This document shows, piece by piece, positions 1,126 to 16,663 of a stretch of 52,528 nt of DNA. This stretch comes from a virus, in IMG/VR virus record IMGVR_UViG_3300050821_012662, positions 1 to 52,528 of that record; one strand, given 5' to 3'. A program made the translations under genes and the position numbers. Under the pieces are notes generated by a model. That model was not told where the DNA came from. It saw only the letters and a list, made by a program, of their open reading frames with translations, and ran no database searches. The number at the start of each line of letters is the position of its first letter. The stretch's first letter is position 1.

Positions 1126-2300
1126 TTTCCGCCCTCCGCCCACGCCGCGTGCTCGTCCCGCAGAATCCACTTCGCCGCAGCCTCGTCCCAGCGATACGCG
1201 CCGCGCCGCCACGGCTCCAGCTCGCCGTGCTCGTGCGAGTTGACCTCGCGCCGCAGCACCGGCCACAGATCGCGATCGGCCGGAGGTGCGCCGGCGATCC
1301 GCAGGACGTGGTGCTCGCCGCAGGCGACATAGAGGTTCACGACTTCGCGCAGAAATCGGCGACGAACCGCGTCGGTCTCGTTGTCTCCGATGCGAGAGAG
1401 CTGAAACTTCTGCGCGGAAGTGATCGCTGACTCCAGCACGACGTACGACTGCGTCCAGTCCCGATAGAGAATGGAGACGGCCTCTCTCGACCCGAGCACG
1501 AACGTGCGAGCACGGGCCAGCGTCCACGGCTCCACGTGTCCGCCGTCGGCGAGAGTGCCGGGGCGCTCGTCCTGATGAGTGAGTCCCGCCTCACTTATCC
1601 TCTCATTTCGGACTTCCACCTGTGACCTCTGGAGATCAACGTGCAGTTCCCCGCGTCTGGAGTGTCCGCTCGCTCGCGGTATGTCGGGGCGCTCGTCCTG
1701 GTGCGCGGCGCCCGCGCGCCTCGCGCGCGCCTCCTGATCAATCGCGTCCTGCACGGGATCGACGCCGTCGTCTCTCGCGTCCTGATCAGACTTGCGCGGC
1801 ATCCGCTCCGCTCGCACGCTGCCGTCCTCGTTAACAACGACAGGACCGCACGGCTCCCGCAGTACTCTCTCGAGAATCTCGACGCGTGTCTTCTCGTCCA
1901 CGGCCACCACGCCGCGCGCCATCATTTCTGCTTCCACAAGACACAGATACCGCCGCAGGTCCCTGATCTCTGCCAGCACCGTGCCGTCCTCGCCCCCCGG
2001 CTCCGCCTCGATCTTGAGGAAAATGTCCTCGGACACGTAGCACGCTCGAAGATACTCGAGATCGTCGTGATTTAGAACGACGCCCCCGATGCTCTTGAGA
2101 TCGAAACCCGCGGGAGCGGGGGGCCGCGCCATCATCACGAGCAGCCGGTCGATCTTCCTGCGCAGCATGAACCAGGCCGACCGGCCGCCGCTGCGCTTCC
2201 AGCTTCCCTGGTACGTGCGCTCGCGCTCCTCGAGAAAGCTGACGTCGCCCTCGGCGACGACGCGCAGATAGTCCAGGTGCCGCATGTCAATATTCGTCAC
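1122..2300 (-). CDS. Hypothetical phage protein, 392 aa, with an internal repeated motif
   Basis: The GTG at 2300 overlaps the TGA of the HD-domain gene (GTGA) and has GGAGAG seven bases upstream, so it is preferred over the in-frame ATG at 2333. Residues about 25-55 contain TYQGSWKRSGG followed by a helix with an IDRL segment. This resembles an N-terminal domain seen in phage proteins near nucleotide-modification genes (recollection only). The middle (about 185-255) is charged and low in complexity, with HQDERP occurring twice about 50 residues apart. The C-terminal half (WTLARARTFVLGSREAVSIL onward) looks like a second globular domain. It sits downstream of the thymidylate synthase and HD genes. 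Function unknown. Confidence 0.65.
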   Translation of the reverse strand: MTNIDMRHLDYLRVVAEGDVSFLEERERTYQGSWKRSGGRSAWFMLRRKIDRLLVMMARPPAPAGFDLKSIGGVVLNHDDLEYLRACYVSEDIFLKIEAEPGGEDGTVLAEIRDLRRYLCLVEAEMMARGVVAVDEKTRVEILERVLREPCGPVVVNEDGSVRAERMPRKSDQDARDDGVDPVQDAIDQEARARRAGAAHQDERPDIPRASGHSRRGELHVDLQRSQVEVRNERISEAGLTHQDERPGTLADGGHVEPWTLARARTFVLGSREAVSILYRDWTQSYVVLESAITSAQKFQLSRIGDNETDAVRRRFLREVVNLYVACGEHHVLRIAGAPPADRDLWPVLRREVNSHEHGELEPWRRGAYRWDEAAAKWILRDEHAAWAEGGK

Positions 2301-2791
2301 TGCTTGGCTCTCCATCTGTTCAGTGTATCCCATTCTCCTAGATCGCGCGCGATGCTCTCAGCCGCCGCCATCGTGTCCTCGATCACGGGAATCGCGTACG
2401 TGTTTCCCATGCAGTGCTCCACGAGTCCAGTCTCCCACATCTCGAGGAGATCGCAGATCTTGAACTTCTTGAACTCCTTGTCGCGAAGCTCGGGGAGCGT
2501 CACGCCGATTCGCGTTCGGCCGATCGCCTCGGCGTGGTTCACGGCTTCGCGAAGCTGAGGCGCGAGATCCTTGGCGGAGAAGGGAACGTCGCCCGAGGAG
2601 AGCTCTCCGCTGTCGTGATGCAGACAGTAGTAGAGAACTTCGGCGCGCGGCAGGCCCCAGAGCTCGCAGTACAGAGTCGCGACTCGCGCGCTGTGCGCCG
2701 CCACGGTCTGCTCGCGAATCATCGGCCACGTGTGCCAGCGACGCACGCGACCCGCGATCTGCGGAGACGACATTATCTTGTCTCGAGTCAC
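2297..2791 (-). CDS. HD-domain phosphohydrolase (YfbR-like 5'-nucleotidase), 164 aa
   Basis: The GTG at 2791 has AGGAGG six bases upstream and a GTGA overlap with the thymidylate synthase stop. HSARVATL (about 33-40) and HHDSGELSSGDVP (about 58-70) give the H...HD pattern of HD metal-dependent phosphohydrolases, and the later CDLLEMWE supplies a further Asp. YfbR-type enzymes dephosphorylate deoxynucleoside monophosphates. Directly behind a dUMP-using enzyme it may reshape the dNMP pool, removing a competing nucleotide while a modified one is made. That role is inferred from position. Confidence 0.8.
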   Translation of the reverse strand: MTRDKIMSSPQIAGRVRRWHTWPMIREQTVAAHSARVATLYCELWGLPRAEVLYYCLHHDSGELSSGDVPFSAKDLAPQLREAVNHAEAIGRTRIGVTLPELRDKEFKKFKICDLLEMWETGLVEHCMGNTYAIPVIEDTMAAAESIARDLGEWDTLNRWRAKQ

Positions 2792-3945
2792 TTCTGCCTC
2801 CTCTGAAGCCACTCGACGCAGGCGAAGCGCCAGTCGGGCGTCTCGATCCTGCCCGCGAGCTCGAGAGCCGTTGTCGGATCTCCGCGCTTGTGATGCCAGT
2901 GCGCCAGCATCGCCCTCTCGAGAGTCCCGCGAAACCACGGATTCTCGTAGCGCGGCAACGGCGCGGTCCCCTCCTGAATCGCGTCGTACCACCCCACGAA
3001 GCGCCGCACGTCCTCGTCGACGGAGTCGGGGGCATCGAACATCGGCCTCACAATTAGGCCGAGCCCGTAGTATCGGTCGTTCTCCAGTGTCTGCCGCAGC
3101 GCCAGCGGCCCGTCGGCGTGCGTCACGTGCTCGAGAGCTCGCCTCTCGAGTCGCTCCATCTCCGCGACGTAGACGTGCGCGTTGTTGCTCACCTGATACA
3201 TGACGCCGACCTCGACGCCGATCCGCGCGGCCAGATACTCCAGCAGCACGCTGAACGAGAAACTGTTCGCTCCCATCCCTCCCCATATCATGTCGTTCGA
3301 GCGACAGCAGACCGTGAGATCGAGCCACGGCCCCTCGATGACCTCCTCGCCGTCGCGGCCGGCGCTTCTCTCGGGCGGCCGCACGCGCAGCATGATGATG
3401 TCGTTGCAGGGTCTATCCTTCCACTTTCCGAGCAGATCGTTGCACCCAGTGTCCTCGTACGACACGACGCGATCTCCTGGCACCGTGGACGGCCCGTGGT
3501 CCACCTCGCGCGTTCCCGGAAGCGAGCAGTCCCACATCTGTACGACAGCCTGCCGCGACGACGGATCACGTCTCAGGATGTTCACCACCGCGTCGAGCTG
3601 ATCGAACCCGAACGCGCTGCGCCATCGCCGCCCGTACGCTCCGTGGATCACGCCCCCCGGCTCGCCGTAGTTCTCGCCGAACTTTCTGACGAATCGCCCC
3701 AGGGGCGCGGCGTCGTCCCTGCCGGCCAGGAGCCAGATCGCCTCGTAGCCGTGAAAGAAGATGTTGGCGTCGCGAACGGGGGCGAACAGCACGCGCTCGG
3801 TCGGGCGACGCGTGACCGTGACGACCGGGCCGGGCGCCACGAGCACCGGGCCGGCGCGCGAGCTCTCGACCGAGCCGCTGTCCTGCAGATACTCGACTAT
3901 CGCAGGCAGAGCCCGAGCGGTGTTCCTGACGTCGATCACGTGCAT
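2788..3945 (-). CDS. Thymidylate synthase family protein, probable dUMP hydroxymethylase, 385 aa
   Basis: ATG at 3945 follows GGGAG with good spacing. The fold is recognisable from RPCNDIIMLRV (catalytic Cys of the TS PC motif, about residue 209), CRSNDMIWGGMGAN (the RSxD...N motif) and a later AHVY that matches the HxY dUMP-binding motif. The Asn after the RSND segment appears retained; Asn there is typical of uracil-specific enzymes, while dCMP hydroxymethylases carry Asp. At 385 aa it is longer than cellular ThyA (about 264). Beside a 5-hmdU kinase-like gene and aGPT-PPlase-like genes, the likely product is 5-hydroxymethyl-dUMP for incorporation into phage DNA; ordinary dTMP synthesis remains possible. 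Confidence 0.85.
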   Translation of the reverse strand: MHVIDVRNTARALPAIVEYLQDSGSVESSRAGPVLVAPGPVVTVTRRPTERVLFAPVRDANIFFHGYEAIWLLAGRDDAAPLGRFVRKFGENYGEPGGVIHGAYGRRWRSAFGFDQLDAVVNILRRDPSSRQAVVQMWDCSLPGTREVDHGPSTVPGDRVVSYEDTGCNDLLGKWKDRPCNDIIMLRVRPPERSAGRDGEEVIEGPWLDLTVCCRSNDMIWGGMGANSFSFSVLLEYLAARIGVEVGVMYQVSNNAHVYVAEMERLERRALEHVTHADGPLALRQTLENDRYYGLGLIVRPMFDAPDSVDEDVRRFVGWYDAIQEGTAPLPRYENPWFRGTLERAMLAHWHHKRGDPTTALELAGRIETPDWRFACVEWLQRRQK

Positions 3946-4407
3946 GACTTTCTCCCCATCTCGTACATCTCCTCCAGAAGCAGCGACACGACATCGCAGC
4001 AGAACTGCTCGTTGTACCAGTGATTCCGACCGCTCGGATGCGGTGTCATTCTCCAGATCAGTCCGTCCCGCCAGACCGGATGCAGCAGCCGGCGCGGCAG
4101 GCCCAGCGCCCTTCGCGGCTCCTCTCCGAGTACCAGCACCAGGCGTCCAGTGTGTGTGTCTCACGGACGAGGCGAAGACAAGCGCAGCTTTCTTCGCCTC
4201 GCTCGCGTCCCACACTCGCGCGCTCAGCAGGTTCCGTCTGTCGAACGCCGCGAGATACTCGTCCTCCGTCACGTCCGGCAGTCGGCGACGCAGCAGACCG
4301 AGCAGGCGAGCGCCGGTGCAGCCCGGAGGAGAGGGCCAGAGCGCGTGTCGCGGATCGCTCGACAAGGGATTGTTCATGCCGATTATGAGAGGACGCTGGT
4401 CACTCAC
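3936..4407 (-). pseudogene. Uracil-DNA glycosylase superfamily-like gene, frameshifted
   Basis: The GTG at 4407 overlaps the upstream stop (GTGA) and follows GGGAGG. The first frame reads LIIGMNNPLSSDPRHALWP at the N-terminus and stays coding to about 4160. The rest (LVLVLGEEPRRALGLP, then a TPHPSGRNHWYN motif) continues in the +1 frame to a TGA at 3936. The glycosylase-superfamily signature is thus split between frames: the Gly-Met-Asn-rich motif near the start and the HPSGRN motif near the end. The break falls on a (GT)5 run at 4150-4159; a sixth GT would restore one uninterrupted reading frame. It may be a real disruption, a contingency tract or an assembly error. Confidence 0.7.
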
Positions 4408-6178: not shown

Positions 6179-7075
6179 TTAGCGTAACGTCGAGCGCGTC
6201 AGTATTCTCTCTATCGCCGCCCTCGCCGCCTCCCTGCCCACCAGATGCGCCGCCGTCTCGAGATACCCCACCTCCAGATCGTGCCGATAGGAGCAGAACC
6301 TCGGCCACGGCCCATCGGCGTAGCGCTCGCGCCACAGTCTCGTCGGATCGCCGTCGTTCTCCAGCGCCATCCTCAGGAAGTCGCCGCACCACTCCCCGGC
6401 TCTCCGCACCTCCTCAGAGCTCAGCGTGCCGGGAAAGTGTCTGAACTCGATGGTGTCCGTCTGCAGGAGCTGCCGAAGATTGACCGCGCACCGCGGACGT
6501 ATGGCCCAGAGCAGTCTGCCGGTGGGCACGTGGAGCACCTCGGCGTCGAAGAACTCGCGCGGCGTGCGCGCTCTCGTCTGCCTCCCGACGATCTCCTCCG
6601 GCATGATCTTCTGATGCGAGACCCTGCGGCGTGCGTATCTCTTTCTTGCCCCTCGGTACGCCTCGGCGTCCGGATACTCCTCGCGCGTGGGCTCCGGTAT
6701 CGGCTCGATGAGCGGCAACACCTCGGGCAGCCACCGCGCGCAGAACTGCTGAGCGCGCTTCAGTCCTGCGAGATTCTCGCGCAGACCCGGCGCGCGCACG
6801 TGCACGTGCAGATTGGATCTGTAGTTCACGGTGGTCTTCTCGTGACCCGAGCCGCGCAGAAACTCATCGAGCTGATCCGCGACGCCGCTCGGCGAGTCGG
6901 CCGGTCGCGCGAGCACCTCGCCCCCCAGGTGAAACAGCTCGCCGCGCGGATCAACCGCGACGCCGCAGGAGTTGACCATCGTCACGTCCCTGAGATCCAG
7001 GTCCCAGGCGCACGGTGCCCGCCTGTCCCAGTCGCTGAGCTCGAACTCGGCGCCGTAGGTCCACTGCGCCATCAT
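6179..7075 (-). CDS. Putative amidoligase-family protein, 298 aa
   Basis: ATG at 7075 gives an ATGA overlap with the kinase-like gene. The N-terminal WTYGAEFELSDW resembles the GvExEf start of the putative amidoligase family (glutamine synthetase-like fold). Further family-like marks are VNSCGVAVDPRGELFHLGGE (about 34-53), NLHVHVR (about 88-94) and IEFRHFPGT (about 213-221). Amidoligases join an amine to a carboxylate using ATP. As the last gene of the five-gene overlapping block, it could attach an amino compound to the base made by the upstream enzymes; a general phage amidoligase role is the alternative. Family call moderately sure, role inferred. Confidence 0.65.
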   Translation of the reverse strand: MMAQWTYGAEFELSDWDRRAPCAWDLDLRDVTMVNSCGVAVDPRGELFHLGGEVLARPADSPSGVADQLDEFLRGSGHEKTTVNYRSNLHVHVRAPGLRENLAGLKRAQQFCARWLPEVLPLIEPIPEPTREEYPDAEAYRGARKRYARRRVSHQKIMPEEIVGRQTRARTPREFFDAEVLHVPTGRLLWAIRPRCAVNLRQLLQTDTIEFRHFPGTLSSEEVRRAGEWCGDFLRMALENDGDPTRLWRERYADGPWPRFCSYRHDLEVGYLETAAHLVGREAARAAIERILTRSTLR

Positions 7076-7641
7076 ATATTTTTCAGCTCCCTCAGCATCG
7101 CTGGCAGCAGCTCCTCTCGCGACACGCGCCGCACGTCGGCCCCCGCCTCCCGCATTCTCCGCGCGTAGCTGTCGTGACTGCGCTGGTCGTTGGCCGTGTT
7201 CTTGGGTGTGCCCCTGCCGTAGACGCCGCGCGCCTCCTGTCGCTGCCGAATGGACGCGTAGCACTGCTCCAGCGGCGTAGTCAGAAGGAAGACGTGCAGC
7301 GCGCTCCCCACCTCTCTGTAGAGTGGCAGACCACGCACGAAGTTCCGCACGAGCAGACCCTCCAGCACCACGGAGCGCCCGCCGCGCCACTCTCTTCTCA
7401 GAATATCGTCTATGAGATCCATGCTGCTGATCGTGTCGCACCCCCCGGTCGGGTTCTCGTACGAGCCCAGCACGTAGATCTCTTCTGTCACTTCTGGCAC
7501 TCTCAGCACGTAGCCGATCGGCAGCCTGCGTCCCTCGACGTGCTGTCTCTCAGAGCTCGCGGCCATGCTCACGAGCGCGCGCACGGCGTGCGACTTGCCC
7601 GAGCCGGACGTGCCGCACACCTGAATGATCTGTCCCATCAT
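7072..7641 (-). CDS. P-loop kinase, probable 5-hydroxymethyl-dU DNA kinase, 189 aa
   Basis: The ATG at 7641 overlaps the upstream stop, and a second ATG at 7638 lies seven bases from AGGAGG. Walker A is GTSGSGKS (about 10-17). VLGSYENPTGGCDTI (about 57-71) is a phage HMUDK-like segment, VVLEGLLV (about 91-98) is the Walker B region and LLTTPLEQCYASIRQR follows. In hypermodifying phages such kinases phosphorylate 5-hydroxymethyluracil in DNA to activate it for substitution. Its place between an aGPT-PPlase-like gene and an amidoligase-like gene fits. A paralogue with the same GGCDTI segment lies at 16122-16663. Confidence 0.75.
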   Translation of the reverse strand: MMGQIIQVCGTSGSGKSHAVRALVSMAASSERQHVEGRRLPIGYVLRVPEVTEEIYVLGSYENPTGGCDTISSMDLIDDILRREWRGGRSVVLEGLLVRNFVRGLPLYREVGSALHVFLLTTPLEQCYASIRQRQEARGVYGRGTPKNTANDQRSHDSYARRMREAGADVRRVSREELLPAMLRELKNI

Positions 7642-8414
7642 CTCACCTCCTCTGGCGCCGCTCTCAGCAGCCTGTCCGCCGTCTCACCCCACCCAGTCAG
7701 CGCGCGCCGCACCTCGGTCACGTCCTTTCCGACGGCGTATCGCCCAGCGCGGTGGGACTTCCACTTGCACAGCACCGTCTCGACCTCCTGCGGTCCGCAG
7801 GCCCGGTCGAAACCGGGGGGAGCGCGTCGTCGTCCGAAGTACCGCAGGAGGTCGCGATAGTGGTCCTGAACGCCTCGGCCCTCGGTCTCCACGAGAAGGT
7901 CGAGCGTGGACCTCGGCTCCGCGTATATCAGTCCGACGTCCGCGGCGAACGTCACGCGCTGCCCCGCGCACCGCTCCAGCATGTCGGCCGCCTTGAAGGC
8001 GATCCACGGTCCGTGCAGCGGCCACTCTCTGACCGCGCTCATGACCTCGGCGTCTGTCCGCAGGGAGGACAGGCTCTCGACCCAGTGCTCGGGGCTCTCC
8101 CGAGCGAGCCAGTCGACCGTTCTGACGCAGACGGCTCCGCGAAAGTGACGCCGCTCTGCCGCGCGTGGCCACCGCTCGCCTCTCGGCGTCGGCGCCGCGT
8201 TCTCGGCCGCGACGCGCACGACTCGCCAGTAGTCGTCGCTCTCGTGCTCGCTGAGCCACGCCGCCGCGCCCAGATGATAGAAGCACCAGTACGCCGTCAG
8301 CAGGCGGCAGAGCTGTGGCCGACGCAGACGCGCGCCGTGTATGGCCACGTACACCGGGTCCAGATCTCTGGTTCTCAACAGCTCGTCACCGAAATCTCTT
8401 ATGCCCAGCGTCAC
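7638..8414 (-). CDS. Alpha-glutamyl/putrescinyl thymine pyrophosphorylase-like (aGPT-PPlase) protein, 258 aa
   Basis: The GTG at 8414 overlaps the FAD-enzyme stop (GTGA). LTAYWCFYHLGAAAWLSEHE (about 39-58), then WPRAAERRHFRG and HGPWIAFKAADMLER, match the DNA-glycosylase-like helical family described as aGPT-PPlase. Members have been shown to act as amino acid:DNA transferases, replacing the phosphorylated 5-hydroxymethyl group with an amino acid. Translationally coupled between the FAD enzyme and the kinase, it is the likely transferase of this pathway. The identity of the transferred amino acid cannot be read from the sequence. Confidence 0.7.
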   Translation of the reverse strand: MTLGIRDFGDELLRTRDLDPVYVAIHGARLRRPQLCRLLTAYWCFYHLGAAAWLSEHESDDYWRVVRVAAENAAPTPRGERWPRAAERRHFRGAVCVRTVDWLARESPEHWVESLSSLRTDAEVMSAVREWPLHGPWIAFKAADMLERCAGQRVTFAADVGLIYAEPRSTLDLLVETEGRGVQDHYRDLLRYFGRRRAPPGFDRACGPQEVETVLCKWKSHRAGRYAVGKDVTEVRRALTGWGETADRLLRAAPEEVR

Positions 8415-9223
8415 GACAGCACCTCCCTCGCGATTCTGCGCGCCGCCCAGGCGGCGGCGGCCGTTCCGTTCTTCGCGCCGCCCGTCGCGGCCCACACGCG
8501 CCCGCGTCTGCGCACCAGGCACGGCTCGCCACTGGTCTCAGCGTACGGTCTCGCGCCCAGAATGCTGATGGTCCTCTCGACCGCGCATCCGGTGACCGCC
8601 AGGCATCTCGCCAGCGAGGCTCTCGCTCTCTCGTCGGTAATTCTCTTGAGCGCCGAACCGTCCCCTGCCCACGATCTGCCGTCCAGCATGTCGAACGCCA
8701 CCACCTGTCGGTAGGGCGCCCAGACGCTGATCACGGCGCGTCCGATGGCTGGTCCCCTGTGCGCCCAGCCCCAGCGACTCTCCACGGTGCCGACCCACGG
8801 ACAGAGGCTCTGCGTCCACACGCCGGCCGCCACCACGACGCCTCTGCGCGCCCCGAGCGTCTCGCCGCTTCTCAGCCGCACTCCGTCGTCGAAGACGCTC
8901 TCGCAAACGCCTCTCGTCTGCGCCGCGCCGAGCACGGTGGCGGGCTCCACGCAGTGACAGGTCGCGTGCCTGCCCAGAGGCAGCGAGAACCGCACGTCGC
9001 GCACGCCGTACAGCTCGCTCAGCATCTCCAGCGCCTCGCTCAGGTCGCTGGTGGTCATGCTGCCCACCCAGCTCGGGCGGATGACACAGCCCGCCGCCGC
9101 CGAGCCCGCGCCCTCGCGGTCGTCCGACACGACCGTCGCGACTGCCCCCTCGCGCGCCAGCCACGCGGCCGCGATCTTGCCGAAGAGACCACCGCCCACG
9201 ACGATCACGTCGCTCGTCGTCAC
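8411..9223 (-). CDS. FAD-dependent oxidoreductase, glycine/D-amino-acid oxidase-like, 270 aa
   Basis: GTG at 9223, AGGAGG five bases upstream, and GTGA overlap with the methyltransferase gene. The N-terminal VIVVGGGLFGKIAAAWLAR (about 6-24) is the GxGxxG dinucleotide-binding motif of the DAO fold. RGVVVAAGVWTQSL in the middle and WAATGGAKNGTAAAAW near the C-terminus are the later FAD contacts. At 270 aa it is shorter than typical DAO enzymes (350-400). In phage hypermodification, flavin enzymes trim a glycine installed on thymidine to an aminomethyl group. That reaction is the best inference here from the neighbours. Confidence 0.75.
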   Translation of the reverse strand: MTTSDVIVVGGGLFGKIAAAWLAREGAVATVVSDDREGAGSAAAGCVIRPSWVGSMTTSDLSEALEMLSELYGVRDVRFSLPLGRHATCHCVEPATVLGAAQTRGVCESVFDDGVRLRSGETLGARRGVVVAAGVWTQSLCPWVGTVESRWGWAHRGPAIGRAVISVWAPYRQVVAFDMLDGRSWAGDGSALKRITDERARASLARCLAVTGCAVERTISILGARPYAETSGEPCLVRRRGRVWAATGGAKNGTAAAAWAARRIAREVLS

Positions 9224-9789
9224 GTCTTCCTCCTCAGGCAGATCACGCGCCACCTGAGCACGGGCACCTTCTCGGCCACGCGCCAGTCCGCGGACGCGAC
9301 TGCTCTCGCGAACCTTTTCTCGTCGTGCACGGCGGTCGTGGCGCCCAGCACGTACTCCGGCCCCAGCCTGATCGTCAGCACGACCCTGCTCCTGGCGACG
9401 CGGCAGCACTCCAGCAGCGCCCGCGTCATGTTCTCCTCGCTCATCAGGTTCAGCAGGCGCACGCACACGACCGAGTCGTGCGACTTGCTCGCGTGCTCCA
9501 GCGATGTCGCGTCGCCGACCGAGAGAGTAGTTTTGTCGCCCCCTCGCACTCTCCTTCTGGCCTCCGCGAGCATGTGCTCGGAGATGTCCACGCCGGTCAC
9601 TGCGAGCCCAAGAGATCGGTACAGACCGAGAAATCTCCCAGTGCCCACGGGCACGTCCAGCACGCTGCCCCGCGCGTCGCGCAGCATCCCAGCGACGACC
9701 TCGTTCTCTCTCAACCACCGCCGACGAGACTCGCGCGTCGCGTCGTACGAGCGAGCGGCGGACCTGCCGTATCTCTGACTCATCGTCAC
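9220..9789 (-). CDS. Class I SAM-dependent methyltransferase, 189 aa
   Basis: GTG at 9789 (an ATG follows at 9783). Motif I is LDVPVGTGRFLGLY, with VTGVDISEHMLAEA as the acidic strand 2 motif and VGDATSLEH and DSVVCVRLLNLMSEE as later cofactor motifs. It is a small-molecule-type Rossmann methyltransferase, without the DPPY or PC motifs of common DNA methyltransferases. It is the first gene of the overlapping block 9789-6179, so it may methylate an amino group on the modified base. The substrate is unknown. Confidence 0.75.
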   Translation of the reverse strand: MTMSQRYGRSAARSYDATRESRRRWLRENEVVAGMLRDARGSVLDVPVGTGRFLGLYRSLGLAVTGVDISEHMLAEARRRVRGGDKTTLSVGDATSLEHASKSHDSVVCVRLLNLMSEENMTRALLECCRVARSRVVLTIRLGPEYVLGATTAVHDEKRFARAVASADWRVAEKVPVLRWRVICLRRKT

Positions 9790-11074: not shown

Positions 11075-11133
11075 GTAATCGCCTTCTGAATGTACCACTC
11101 ATGGCCGACGCGAACGCGGATCTGGTCGGTCAT
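11062..11133 (-). CDS. Possible small peptide gene, 23 aa
   Basis: ATG at 11133 overlaps the stop of the 11130-12032 gene (ATGA) and reads MTDQIRVRVGHEWYIQKAI before a TAG. Coupling is its only support. It could equally be a chance frame between real genes. Confidence 0.35.
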   Translation of the reverse strand: MTDQIRVRVGHEWYIQKAITCQR

Positions 11134-12032
11134 CGGTAGACTCCTCGGGGACGGCCCTCGCCGTTCTGCACTCTCATCATCTTGTCGACCTCGCAACTGA
11201 GATGCTCGATGTCGCGCATCTCCAGCGCGGGCCAGTCTCTCTTGTTCTTCTGCGGCCAGTTCTTCTCGTCCCCCGACATCGCGAGCAGCTCCCGCATCTC
11301 GCCGACGAGCTCGTCCTGACTCAGCGACTTGTCGCGCTTGTCCCTGCCGGCTATCCGGTTCAGCCCCCTGCGAGCCCCCGGCCCCGCGTGCGCCCACGTC
11401 ATGATGTCCGGCGCGCGATCCAGCAGGCTCGTCCATCGCAGATCGGAGACGATCTCGTAGGAGTGGAAGCTGCCCATCCAGGGCTGCGCTCGGAACCAGA
11501 CATGCGCCTCCTGCAACGAGTACGGCGTCTTCTGCATCATGCACTCCGCAACGTCCCTCCACCCACTCTTCCTGTGAAAATTCTGCAGTACGCTCATCAC
11601 TCCATCCAGCTTGGATTTTCCCTGCGGACTAGAAATGATGTAGGCACCCGTAACAAAGGGACCTCGCTTTCCAACGAGCGCCAAGATGTTTCTCTTCAAC
11701 TCACTCGCCATCTCGGTCCTGTAGAACAGGTCGAACCCAGTTCGCCCACCGAGGTCTGGCTGACAAAACATCGCCTCGCCGACCTCGACCCGGTTGAGCA
11801 TGCGAAAGACCACCGTGGCCAGAAGCACCTCGGGTCGGTCGCGCATCGGGTCGCGCACGTGCTCCCGGAACCAGATTGTCGTGCGGTCGTCCTCGCGGCG
11901 AACGCAGGTGAAGCGATATCGCTGGAGAATCGGGTCGCGAGTCCACTCCTCGCGCGGTAGGCCGGCCCGTCGGCGCAGGAGAATATTTTGTCGCTCGCGG
12001 GCGTAGGCGAAGAAGGTGGAGGCGTGTTTCAC
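11130..12032 (-). CDS. aGPT-PPlase / 5-hmdU DNA kinase helical-domain family protein, 300 aa
   Basis: GTG at 12032 overlaps the upstream stop (GTGA). The N-terminal half has the family hallmark: FAYARERQNILLRRRAG (about 8-24), EWTRDPILQRYRFTCVRRED (about 29-48) and the Arg-rich segment after it. No Walker A motif is present, so the nucleotide-kinase half found in some fused members is absent. In the hypermodification literature this helical domain is associated with 5-hmdU DNA kinases and thymine pyrophosphorylase-like amino acid:DNA transferases. With the protein at 7638-8414 it gives this phage two such enzymes. Confidence 0.7.
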   Translation of the reverse strand: MKHASTFFAYARERQNILLRRRAGLPREEWTRDPILQRYRFTCVRREDDRTTIWFREHVRDPMRDRPEVLLATVVFRMLNRVEVGEAMFCQPDLGGRTGFDLFYRTEMASELKRNILALVGKRGPFVTGAYIISSPQGKSKLDGVMSVLQNFHRKSGWRDVAECMMQKTPYSLQEAHVWFRAQPWMGSFHSYEIVSDLRWTSLLDRAPDIMTWAHAGPGARRGLNRIAGRDKRDKSLSQDELVGEMRELLAMSGDEKNWPQKNKRDWPALEMRDIEHLSCEVDKMMRVQNGEGRPRGVYR

Positions 12033-15754: not shown

Positions 15755-16125
15755 GATTCTGCCCTGATGACTATCGTCCCCGGCTCCGGTTCTAAAACTA
15801 GAACAGATCCTGCGACGATGTCCCTCATTTCCGCCTCTACGTGCACGAGCACGCCCATTGGTCTCACCTGATCGATACAGTCGTCGATCATCTCCGAGAC
15901 CTGCTCACGCTCTGTCTCGCTGAGTGGCCCCATCGCTACGACCTGCCTCGCTATCTCGGATATCGTGTCGATCAGCGTCTGCGCCGTGCACAGCCAGCCC
16001 TTCGGGCTGATCATGATCGGCGGTAGCACACGGGCGACTGGCGACGGCACCGCGATCGCAGGACACGCCGTTGCAACGATCGTTGCACCGAGACCTGCGA
16101 GAAATCGTCTCCTGTCTGCAGTCAT
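15751..16125 (-). CDS. Exported protein with Tat-like signal peptide, 124 aa
   Basis: ATG at 16125 overlaps the upstream stop (ATGA). The N-terminus MTADRRRFLAGLGATIVATA is a twin-arginine-type leader (RRRFLAG then a mild hydrophobic stretch), with a likely cleavage near PAIA. The mature part is helical (TLIDTISEIARQVV, ETEREQVSEMIDDCI) and ends in beta-like EPGTIVIRAES. Tat export of a phage early protein is unusual. Function unknown. Confidence 0.7.
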   Translation of the reverse strand: MTADRRRFLAGLGATIVATACPAIAVPSPVARVLPPIMISPKGWLCTAQTLIDTISEIARQVVAMGPLSETEREQVSEMIDDCIDQVRPMGVLVHVEAEMRDIVAGSVLVLEPEPGTIVIRAES

Positions 16126-16663
16126 GACCTTTGCTCCAACCCAAGCACCGCGCGCGGCCGCCCCGGCGCCGTCTCCCTTGTCACCTTCTCACACGGAATC
16201 CCGAGGAAGCGCATCTTCGCGCAGAACGACTGACTCGTTCTGTAGTGATCGCCCGTCTTCTTCTCGGAGAGCTCGCGCTCGTCGCCTCGCCGCGCTCGCC
16301 GCTCGCGCACGCCCGCGAGGCAGACGTCCAGAGGCGTCACGAGCTGAAGCACGTGCACCGGCAGATCGCGCGCCAGCAGCGGCACGCGCCTCATGCTCAT
16401 GAGAAAGATGCCCTCCATGATCACGTGAAGTCCCTCGGCGGCTCTCTCTCGGGCTGTCCCTCTAGGTCACGTATCGTGTCGCAACCGCCGCACTCCCCGT
16501 CGGCGTACGACCCGAGCGCGAGAATTCGCCCACCAAGAAGATGCCCGATCGGGACGCGGCGACCAGGAACGAACTGCGGCTCGTCGCTCAGCTCGTCGAA
16601 GAGCCCGCGCACGATCGTCGACTTGCCCGAGCCGTAGGTTCCAGCGATCTGAACTATGGCCAC
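16122..16663 (-). pseudogene. Second P-loop 5-hmdU DNA kinase-like gene, frameshifted
   Basis: GTG at 16663 follows GGAGG by seven bases. The first frame has Walker A GTYGSGKST, then GRRVPIGHLLGG and ALGSYADGECGGCDTI, colinear with the kinase at 7072-7641. It then stops at 16421. The rest (VIMEGIFLMSMRRVP, LQLVTPLDVCLAGVRERR) continues in a second frame to 16122. The break lies at the CTCTCTCT run 16442-16449; removing one CT unit restores a single frame of about 180 codons. Whether the enzyme is really inactive depends on confirming that run. Confidence 0.7.

Follow-up and report, generated by a model that had tools for sequence, protein, structure and literature searches.

The window analysed here is a viral DNA of 52,528 nucleotides (IMG/VR virus record IMGVR_UViG_3300050821_012662, positions 1 to 52,528). 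It carries on its minus strand, from 9789 down to 6179, a block of five genes that sequence comparison leads us, on balance, slightly to favour as the tailoring section of a pathway that hypermodifies thymidine after replication. A ligase of this block would acylate the amine of an aminomethyl group on the base, and a methyltransferase would probably N-methylate. The genes, in block order, are the following.

9220..9789, minus strand: class I S-adenosylmethionine (SAM)-dependent methyltransferase (MTase), 189 amino acids (aa), first gene of the block; PF13649 E 1.9e-16, PF08241 E 8.4e-15
8411..9223, minus strand: flavin-dependent lyase homologue, 270 aa; PDB 8z2o/8z79, phrog_16743
7638..8414, minus strand: AADT (amino acid:DNA transferase, formerly aGPT-PPlase2), 258 aa; PF18724, PDB 8z2m/8z2n
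7072..7641, minus strand: P-loop kinase-like protein, 189 aa; AAA_33 E 2.5e-7
6179..7075, minus strand: carboxylate-amine (amido) ligase-like protein, 298 aa; glutamine-synthetase/YbdK-type fold, PF12224 E 8.5e-4 (below the cut-off)

Two of the five proteins match enzymes of solved structure. In a Pfam profile search, the AADT scored above the cut-off of PF18724 (E 6.3e-12), and it matches the solved 'Glycinyltransferase' of PDB entries 8z2m/8z2n with an E-value of 1.1e-51. The flavin enzyme aligns over residues 4-268 of its 270 with PDB entries 8z2o/8z79, 'Flavin-dependent lyase' (phmmer, E 1.8e-45), and also matches phrog_16743 (E 3.9e-42). As Lee et al. (2022) and Wen et al. (2024) reportedly found, AADT makes N-alpha-glycinyl-thymidine, from which the lyase is then said to make 5-aminomethyldeoxyuridine (5-aminomethyl-dU). 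Our account of the AADT, lyase and acetyltransferase steps in known phages follows these papers and the PDB molecule names. Given the matches to solved enzymes, the AADT and flavin lyase of the block very likely convert 5-hydroxymethyldeoxyuridine (5-hmdU) to 5-aminomethyl-dU. An earlier model-made annotation of the window (the original prediction) had labelled these genes 'aGPT-PPlase-like' and 'FAD (flavin adenine dinucleotide) enzyme', and the last gene of the block 'amidoligase-like'; all three labels stand in the light of profile, PDB and structure matches.

Relatives of the AADT were found in 96 of 50,697 phage records, those of the lyase in 18, of the ligase in 2 and of the MTase in none. 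The lyase alignment found no relative in bacterial and archaeal genomes. Viral contigs (the viral_contigs collection) were scanned with alignments, because single sequences found little or nothing: the ligase sequence had no match and the lyase sequence one locus. A narrower lyase alignment returned two already known loci only. The scans supplied 32 ligase loci, the best 80 of 148 AADT loci and 49 lyase loci (referred to below by number, L012 and so on); for the AADT-scan counts, the best 80 of the 148 loci were clustered at 85% identity, which left 65 clusters. Genes in the relatives' loci were called roughly, in six frames, and counts of genes between core genes are approximate. Lyase and AADT occur in either order in these loci.

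The fold of the last protein of the block was modelled from 34 alignment rows, with a predicted local distance difference test (pLDDT) score of 96.1 and a predicted template-modelling (pTM) score of 0.91. The model matched YbdK with Z 9.9 (root mean square deviation 4.2, 209 residues aligned), followed by glutamate-cysteine ligase (Z 9.2) and glutamine synthetase (Z 9.1), and Foldseek returned 3ln6 (E 7.6e-4, probability 0.99). These matches support a predicted ATP-dependent carboxylate-amine ligase with a fold of the glutamine-synthetase/glutamylcysteine-synthetase (GCS) type. Residues E10, E12, E53, R195, N199, E210 and R212 are invariant in the 34-row alignment; all but N199 are putative metal or ATP ligands. 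PF12224 was matched at E 0.01 or better by 20 of 35 ligase rows, the window's included (best 1.5e-8). A gene distantly related to the ligase (L006:7866-8978) adjoins genes of 7-deazaguanine (queuosine) type in Vibrio phage 2.275.O; the family may accordingly have a part in other kinds of DNA base modification.

The original prediction had placed the amidoligase inside the pathway on account of its overlap with the neighbouring gene. This placement is borne out independently, by the fold and by the company that the gene keeps: an AADT gene is present in 31 of the 32 loci of the ligase alignment, 14 times of the window's AADT clade and 17 times of a second clade, two members of which were scanned and match PF18724 too. 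The 32nd locus is a 4.3-kb fragment bearing lyase, kinase and HMUDK_hel genes. Related phages with the amidoligase sited elsewhere were looked for by a whole-record search of 49 AADT records without a nearby ligase. One match was obtained, a contig-end fragment just upstream of the AADT gene; the idea that the ligase sits elsewhere in the genomes of related phages was rejected, none being seen apart from the block in the 49 records.

Within the 65 AADT clusters, the ligase is found in 9 of the 30 with a lyase and in 1 of the 35 without (p 0.004), and an acetyltransferase in 10/30 and 0/35, respectively (p 1.7e-4). Radical-SAM genes (p 7.5e-7) and pyridoxal phosphate (PLP) genes (p 6.3e-6) avoid the lyase. 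Five ligase loci combine an AADT of the window's clade with the lack of a lyase: four of them have radical-SAM and PLP genes and the fifth, L012, is cut at the AADT. According to Lee et al., radical-SAM and PLP genes are reportedly another amine-making route. Within the window's AADT clade, the ligase is thus found in settings in which a free amine would be expected, four of the five lyase-less loci having the radical-SAM and PLP genes.

The ligase and the acetyltransferase were never seen together in a lyase cluster. Counts over 56 lyase clusters gave 23 with ligase, 14 with acetyltransferase, none with both and 19 with neither (Fisher p 2.7e-4); the 43 with full flanks gave 19, 10, 0 and 14 (p 0.0011), and the 30 lyase clusters of the AADT scan 9, 10, 0 and 11 (p 0.013). 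On the best lyase tree, ligase and acetyltransferase labels change 12 and 11 times, at least 3 and at least 2 of these changes being forced by starred branches; the repeated changes indicate that the two genes have been exchanged. A comparison of ligase and acetyltransferase by independent pairs on this tree had too few pairs. The literature searched, which included part of PMC7824862 and did not cover Iyer 2013, yielded no link of an amidoligase to AADT clusters, and no assay of a ligase step on thymidine was found in the searchable literature.

Some further features of the ligase loci were recorded. A low-molecular-weight (LMW)-phosphatase-like gene is present in 16 of the 23 lyase clusters with a ligase and in 0 of the 33 without; the block of the window lacks it. 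In L050 (8874-10001), L051 and L153, a radical-SAM/SPASM protein missed by the profile of the other route's radical-SAM family lies between the ligase and the lyase or AADT. A second kind of cluster, found in L026-L039 and L042 (for example, L038:2630-8152), consists of ligase, LMW-phosphatase-like gene, second-clade AADT and kinase; the L038 cluster additionally has a GATase and a glycosyltransferase-like gene.

The pathway is larger than the block: the HMUDK_hel and thymidylate-synthase (TS)-like genes lie outside the latter, together with other genes of interest.

11130-12032, minus strand: HMUDK_hel protein (5-hmdU DNA kinase, helical domain); PF18723 E 5.8e-41
2788-3945, minus strand: TS-like gene, candidate deoxyuridine monophosphate (dUMP) hydroxymethylase, its extent taken from a codon-usage gene call; PF00303 E 3.1e-16, phrog_5131 E 2.3e-80
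2297-2791, minus strand: HD-domain, 5'-nucleotidase-like gene, adjoining the TS-like gene as in relatives
about 3936-4400, minus strand: uracil-DNA glycosylase (UDG)-like gene, split over two frames; beside the TS-like gene in L044, L045 and L012
16122-16663, minus strand: another P-loop kinase gene, of the block kinase's family, divided between two frames (16421-16663 for the N-terminal part and 16122-16424 for the C-terminal part)

The markers of AADT-type thymidine hypermodification (PF18724, PF18723, a P-loop kinase and a TS-like gene) are all present in the window. The HD gene is 61% identical to that of L044 over 157 aa, and its family occurs in 34 of the 65 AADT clusters. The TS-like gene of L167 (11345-13234), about 630 aa, is seemingly interrupted by an intein-like stretch.

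The pathway that we propose would run as follows. The TS-like enzyme would make 5-hmdU, which would be placed in DNA and phosphorylated there by the kinase system. AADT would swap the phosphate for glycine, giving N-alpha-glycinyl-thymidine (chemically 5-carboxymethylaminomethyl-dU), and the flavin lyase would trim the glycinyl base to 5-aminomethyl-dU. The amidoligase-like enzyme would then use ATP to acylate the free amine with a carboxylic acid, probably an amino acid, in the role reportedly played by the acetyltransferase in phage PaMx11 and its relatives. The MTase would probably N-methylate an amine, either that of the base or that of the coupled group, in the way in which MnmC follows up its flavin step. 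The substrates, the order of the steps and the whole role of the MTase are putative. The decoration of thymidine is probably an armour of the phage DNA against bacterial defences.

Several observations weigh against this reading. The amidoligase-like protein of the window scored 19.7 bits against PF12224 (Amidoligase_2; E 8.5e-4), under the Pfam cut-off of 22 bits; because of this score it is termed 'amidoligase-like' and is not filed as a member of that family. The loci with the second AADT clade, 17 of the 32 ligase loci, had no lyase, TS-like or HMUDK_hel gene found within the locus, and the ligase is thus not always tied to the chemistry of these three. The set of 56 lyase clusters takes in loci fetched by the ligase and lyase searches; within the AADT scan, the exclusion between ligase and acetyltransferase has a p of 0.062 when full flanks only are counted, and over all 65 AADT clusters a p of 0.34. 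The cluster counts, moreover, are not phylogenetically independent. Finally, the MTase has no relative for comparison, the one methyltransferase found in a related block (L061) being unrelated to it.

The original prediction had started from the gene junctions. The five genes and their four 4-base overlaps were confirmed, with the limits of 6179-9789 exact and the shared letters as claimed: GTGA between MTase and flavin enzyme and between flavin enzyme and AADT, ATGA between AADT and kinase and between kinase and amidoligase-like gene. These overlaps had been taken to suggest stoichiometric production and a shared pathway. The overlaps are compatible with translational coupling; as an argument for stoichiometry or a shared pathway, however, they are weak, since this genome has many of them. 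When genes were called by codon usage, with training on the whole window, an exact 4-base overlap occurred at 20 of the 65 same-strand junctions (27 of the 65 could have one), and the dUMP-hydroxymethylase-like and HD genes belong to a second run of 4-base junctions, at about 569-2791. Four consecutive overlaps are somewhat unusual, yet they are nothing special to this block and do not single it out; as evidence in themselves they were rejected. It is rather probable that the coupling of the block has no special meaning and that the tight packing of an ordinary phage operon accounts for the overlaps, although such packing would not account for the joint occurrence of AADT, lyase and ligase genes in dozens of viral contigs.

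The position of the MTase within the pathway, also claimed on the strength of the overlaps, fared less well than that of the ligase. Seven Pfam families match the protein, none of them MnmC-specific and none a DNA-MTase family; its closest solved relative by sequence is a phosphatidylethanolamine N-methyltransferase (E 1.7e-8), and folding without an alignment gave a poor model (pLDDT 40). The motif of DNA N6/N4 methyltransferases is (D/N/S)PP(Y/F). It was absent on reading the 189 aa, and with no match to the corresponding Pfam families a role as DNA N6/N4 methyltransferase was rejected. A single-sequence scan of viral_contigs found no relative of the MTase, as had been the case with the phage records. 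In the 49 related records nothing matched at E 0.001 or better, the sole match (E 0.0016) having an internal stop and lying far from the block; nor was there a match at E 0.1 in the further AADT loci obtained with a narrower AADT alignment. PF13649 reaches its cut-off in only 3 of the 49 related records (2.4 Mb together); such methyltransferases are hence occasional extras and no fixed part of the blocks. One PF13649 methyltransferase, unlike that of the window, does lie inside a lyase block, in L061 between a radical-SAM gene and a kinase. What stands of the claim is adjacency in an overlapping run; what speaks against it is the lack of a relative in the collections searched. It is quite possible that the MTase is a passenger, acting on a metabolite, a host target or a tRNA and merely sharing the transcript: no related block seen contains a relative of it, the only methyltransferase there being the unrelated one of L061, PF13649 is as rare as just described, and 4-base overlaps are common in the window. 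On the other side, the MTase gene opens the unbroken series of overlapping genes and is immediately followed by the lyase gene, and the lack, on reading, of the DNA-MTase motif IV suits a methyltransferase of small groups. A pair of flavin cleavage and methylation acting on the same side chain is, furthermore, known from tRNA (PMC9626948, in the part available). Adjacency and the functional parallel with MnmC thus suggest a place in the pathway for the MTase.

The label 'kinase-like' proved apt for the fourth gene, a P-loop protein whose homologues in relatives adjoin AADT genes. In a tree of 106 kinases, the block kinase groups with kinases of L045, L046, L047 and L052 (branch value 95), which are loci with a second kinase, and the window likewise has a second kinase-like gene, at 16122-16663, divided between two frames. 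It may tentatively be suggested from this that the block kinase is a paralogue with another substrate and that the canonical 5-hmdU DNA kinase is the copy at 16122-16663. This second gene is, however, either broken or affected by a sequence error; if broken, as it looks, the functional kinase may be that of the block. Moreover L044, in which one kinase was found, has it directly after the AADT.

Last, the ligase could act in reverse and, ahead of the lyase, join the glycinyl base by its carboxylate to an amine or an amino acid, the way CmoY works on carboxymethylcytosine. The precedent of an amide ligase that uses ATP to link glycine to a carboxylate in DNA (PMC12783734, as far as available) and the 17 ligase loci with AADT and no lyase speak for this, but it is unlikely, given that the lyase, where present with the ligase, would remove that carboxylate, that ligase and acetyltransferase never occur together in the 56 lyase clusters and that four of the five lyase-less blocks of the window's AADT clade carry other amine-making genes.

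The reading that we prefer, with the ligase acylating the aminomethyl amine, can be taken further. The 5-aminomethyl group of thymidine might be both N-methylated and amide-joined to an amino acid, a DNA version of the tRNA wobble base 5-methylaminomethyluridine (mnm5U), made by an unrelated MnmC-like pair and completed by a glutamine-synthetase-fold ligase through a bond of peptide type, with the ligase family a widespread alternative to acetylation; this extended version is doubtful. Should the proposal hold, amide-forming ligation, and perhaps N-methylation, would join the tailoring reactions on phage thymidine. The last step is apparently exchangeable between phages, with acetyltransferase or ligase and never both seen, as an arms race with host nucleases would favour.

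The same five-gene order was sought in viral contigs and was found in none of the loci listed. Tailoring genes vary among the relatives, and AADT, kinase and TS-like genes stay; the nearest backbone relatives share with the window AADT, kinase, TS-like and HD genes and a further gene, X. L044 and L045 have radical-SAM and PLP genes in place of lyase, ligase and MTase; L157 has a lyase, and no ligase was found in it. In L012 (IMGVR_UViG_3300047160_014927), AADT, kinase, kinase and ligase follow each other in a row, with ATGA at the AADT/kinase and kinase/ligase junctions; its ligase is 54% identical to the window's, and the same UDG, TS-like, HD and X genes lie downstream. Unlike the block of the window, L012 has an LMW-phosphatase-like gene, and it is cut off inside the AADT gene, so that a lyase or MTase would be unseen. 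Phage Simon (PQ683277), whose sequence comes from raw sewage, and contigs such as L013, L021, L083 and L119 resemble the window in holding AADT, flavin lyase and ligase in one block; they differ in that the ligase comes directly or soon after the lyase and is followed by the LMW-phosphatase-like gene, and no MTase was found in them.

Among known systems, Pseudomonas phages PaMx11 and Ab18 have AADT, lyase, kinase, HMUDK_hel and TS-like genes homologous to those of the window. PaMx11 has AADT, lyase, acetyltransferase (assigned by Pfam), kinase, HMUDK_hel and TS-like genes in a row, with 4-base overlaps at AADT/lyase and lyase/acetyltransferase. In the window, by contrast, the lyase precedes the AADT, HMUDK_hel lies apart, and an amidoligase-like gene and an MTase are found instead of the acetyltransferase. 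A second parallel is with tRNA. N-alpha-glycinyl-thymidine is chemically the DNA counterpart of 5-carboxymethylaminomethyluridine (cmnm5U), which MnmC cleaves with flavin to 5-aminomethyluridine (nm5U) and then methylates with SAM to mnm5U (PMC9626948, available part); the same pair of reactions on the same side chain is proposed here for lyase and MTase. Membership of the MnmC family was rejected, the lyase scoring far under the cut-offs of PRK01747 (E 0.012) and TIGR03197 (E 0.038) and the MTase matching no MnmC-specific Pfam family. If the proposal is correct, flavin cleavage followed by methylation would occur on the same side chain in tRNA and phage DNA by means of different proteins. The proposed ligase, for its part, has a counterpart in the CmoX/CmoY system of phage S-B43, in which, according to the portion of PMC12783734 available, an ATP-dependent amide ligase joins glycine to carboxymethylcytosine in DNA. 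Both would decorate a phage DNA base by an ATP-dependent amide ligase; the CmoX/CmoY system uses cytosine, a carboxylate handle and a ligase of the asparagine-synthetase type, whereas the window would use thymidine and a ligase of the glutamine-synthetase type. Seen against these systems, the block is a further version of a known type of DNA hypermodification cluster, and the proposed ligase step is what it adds.

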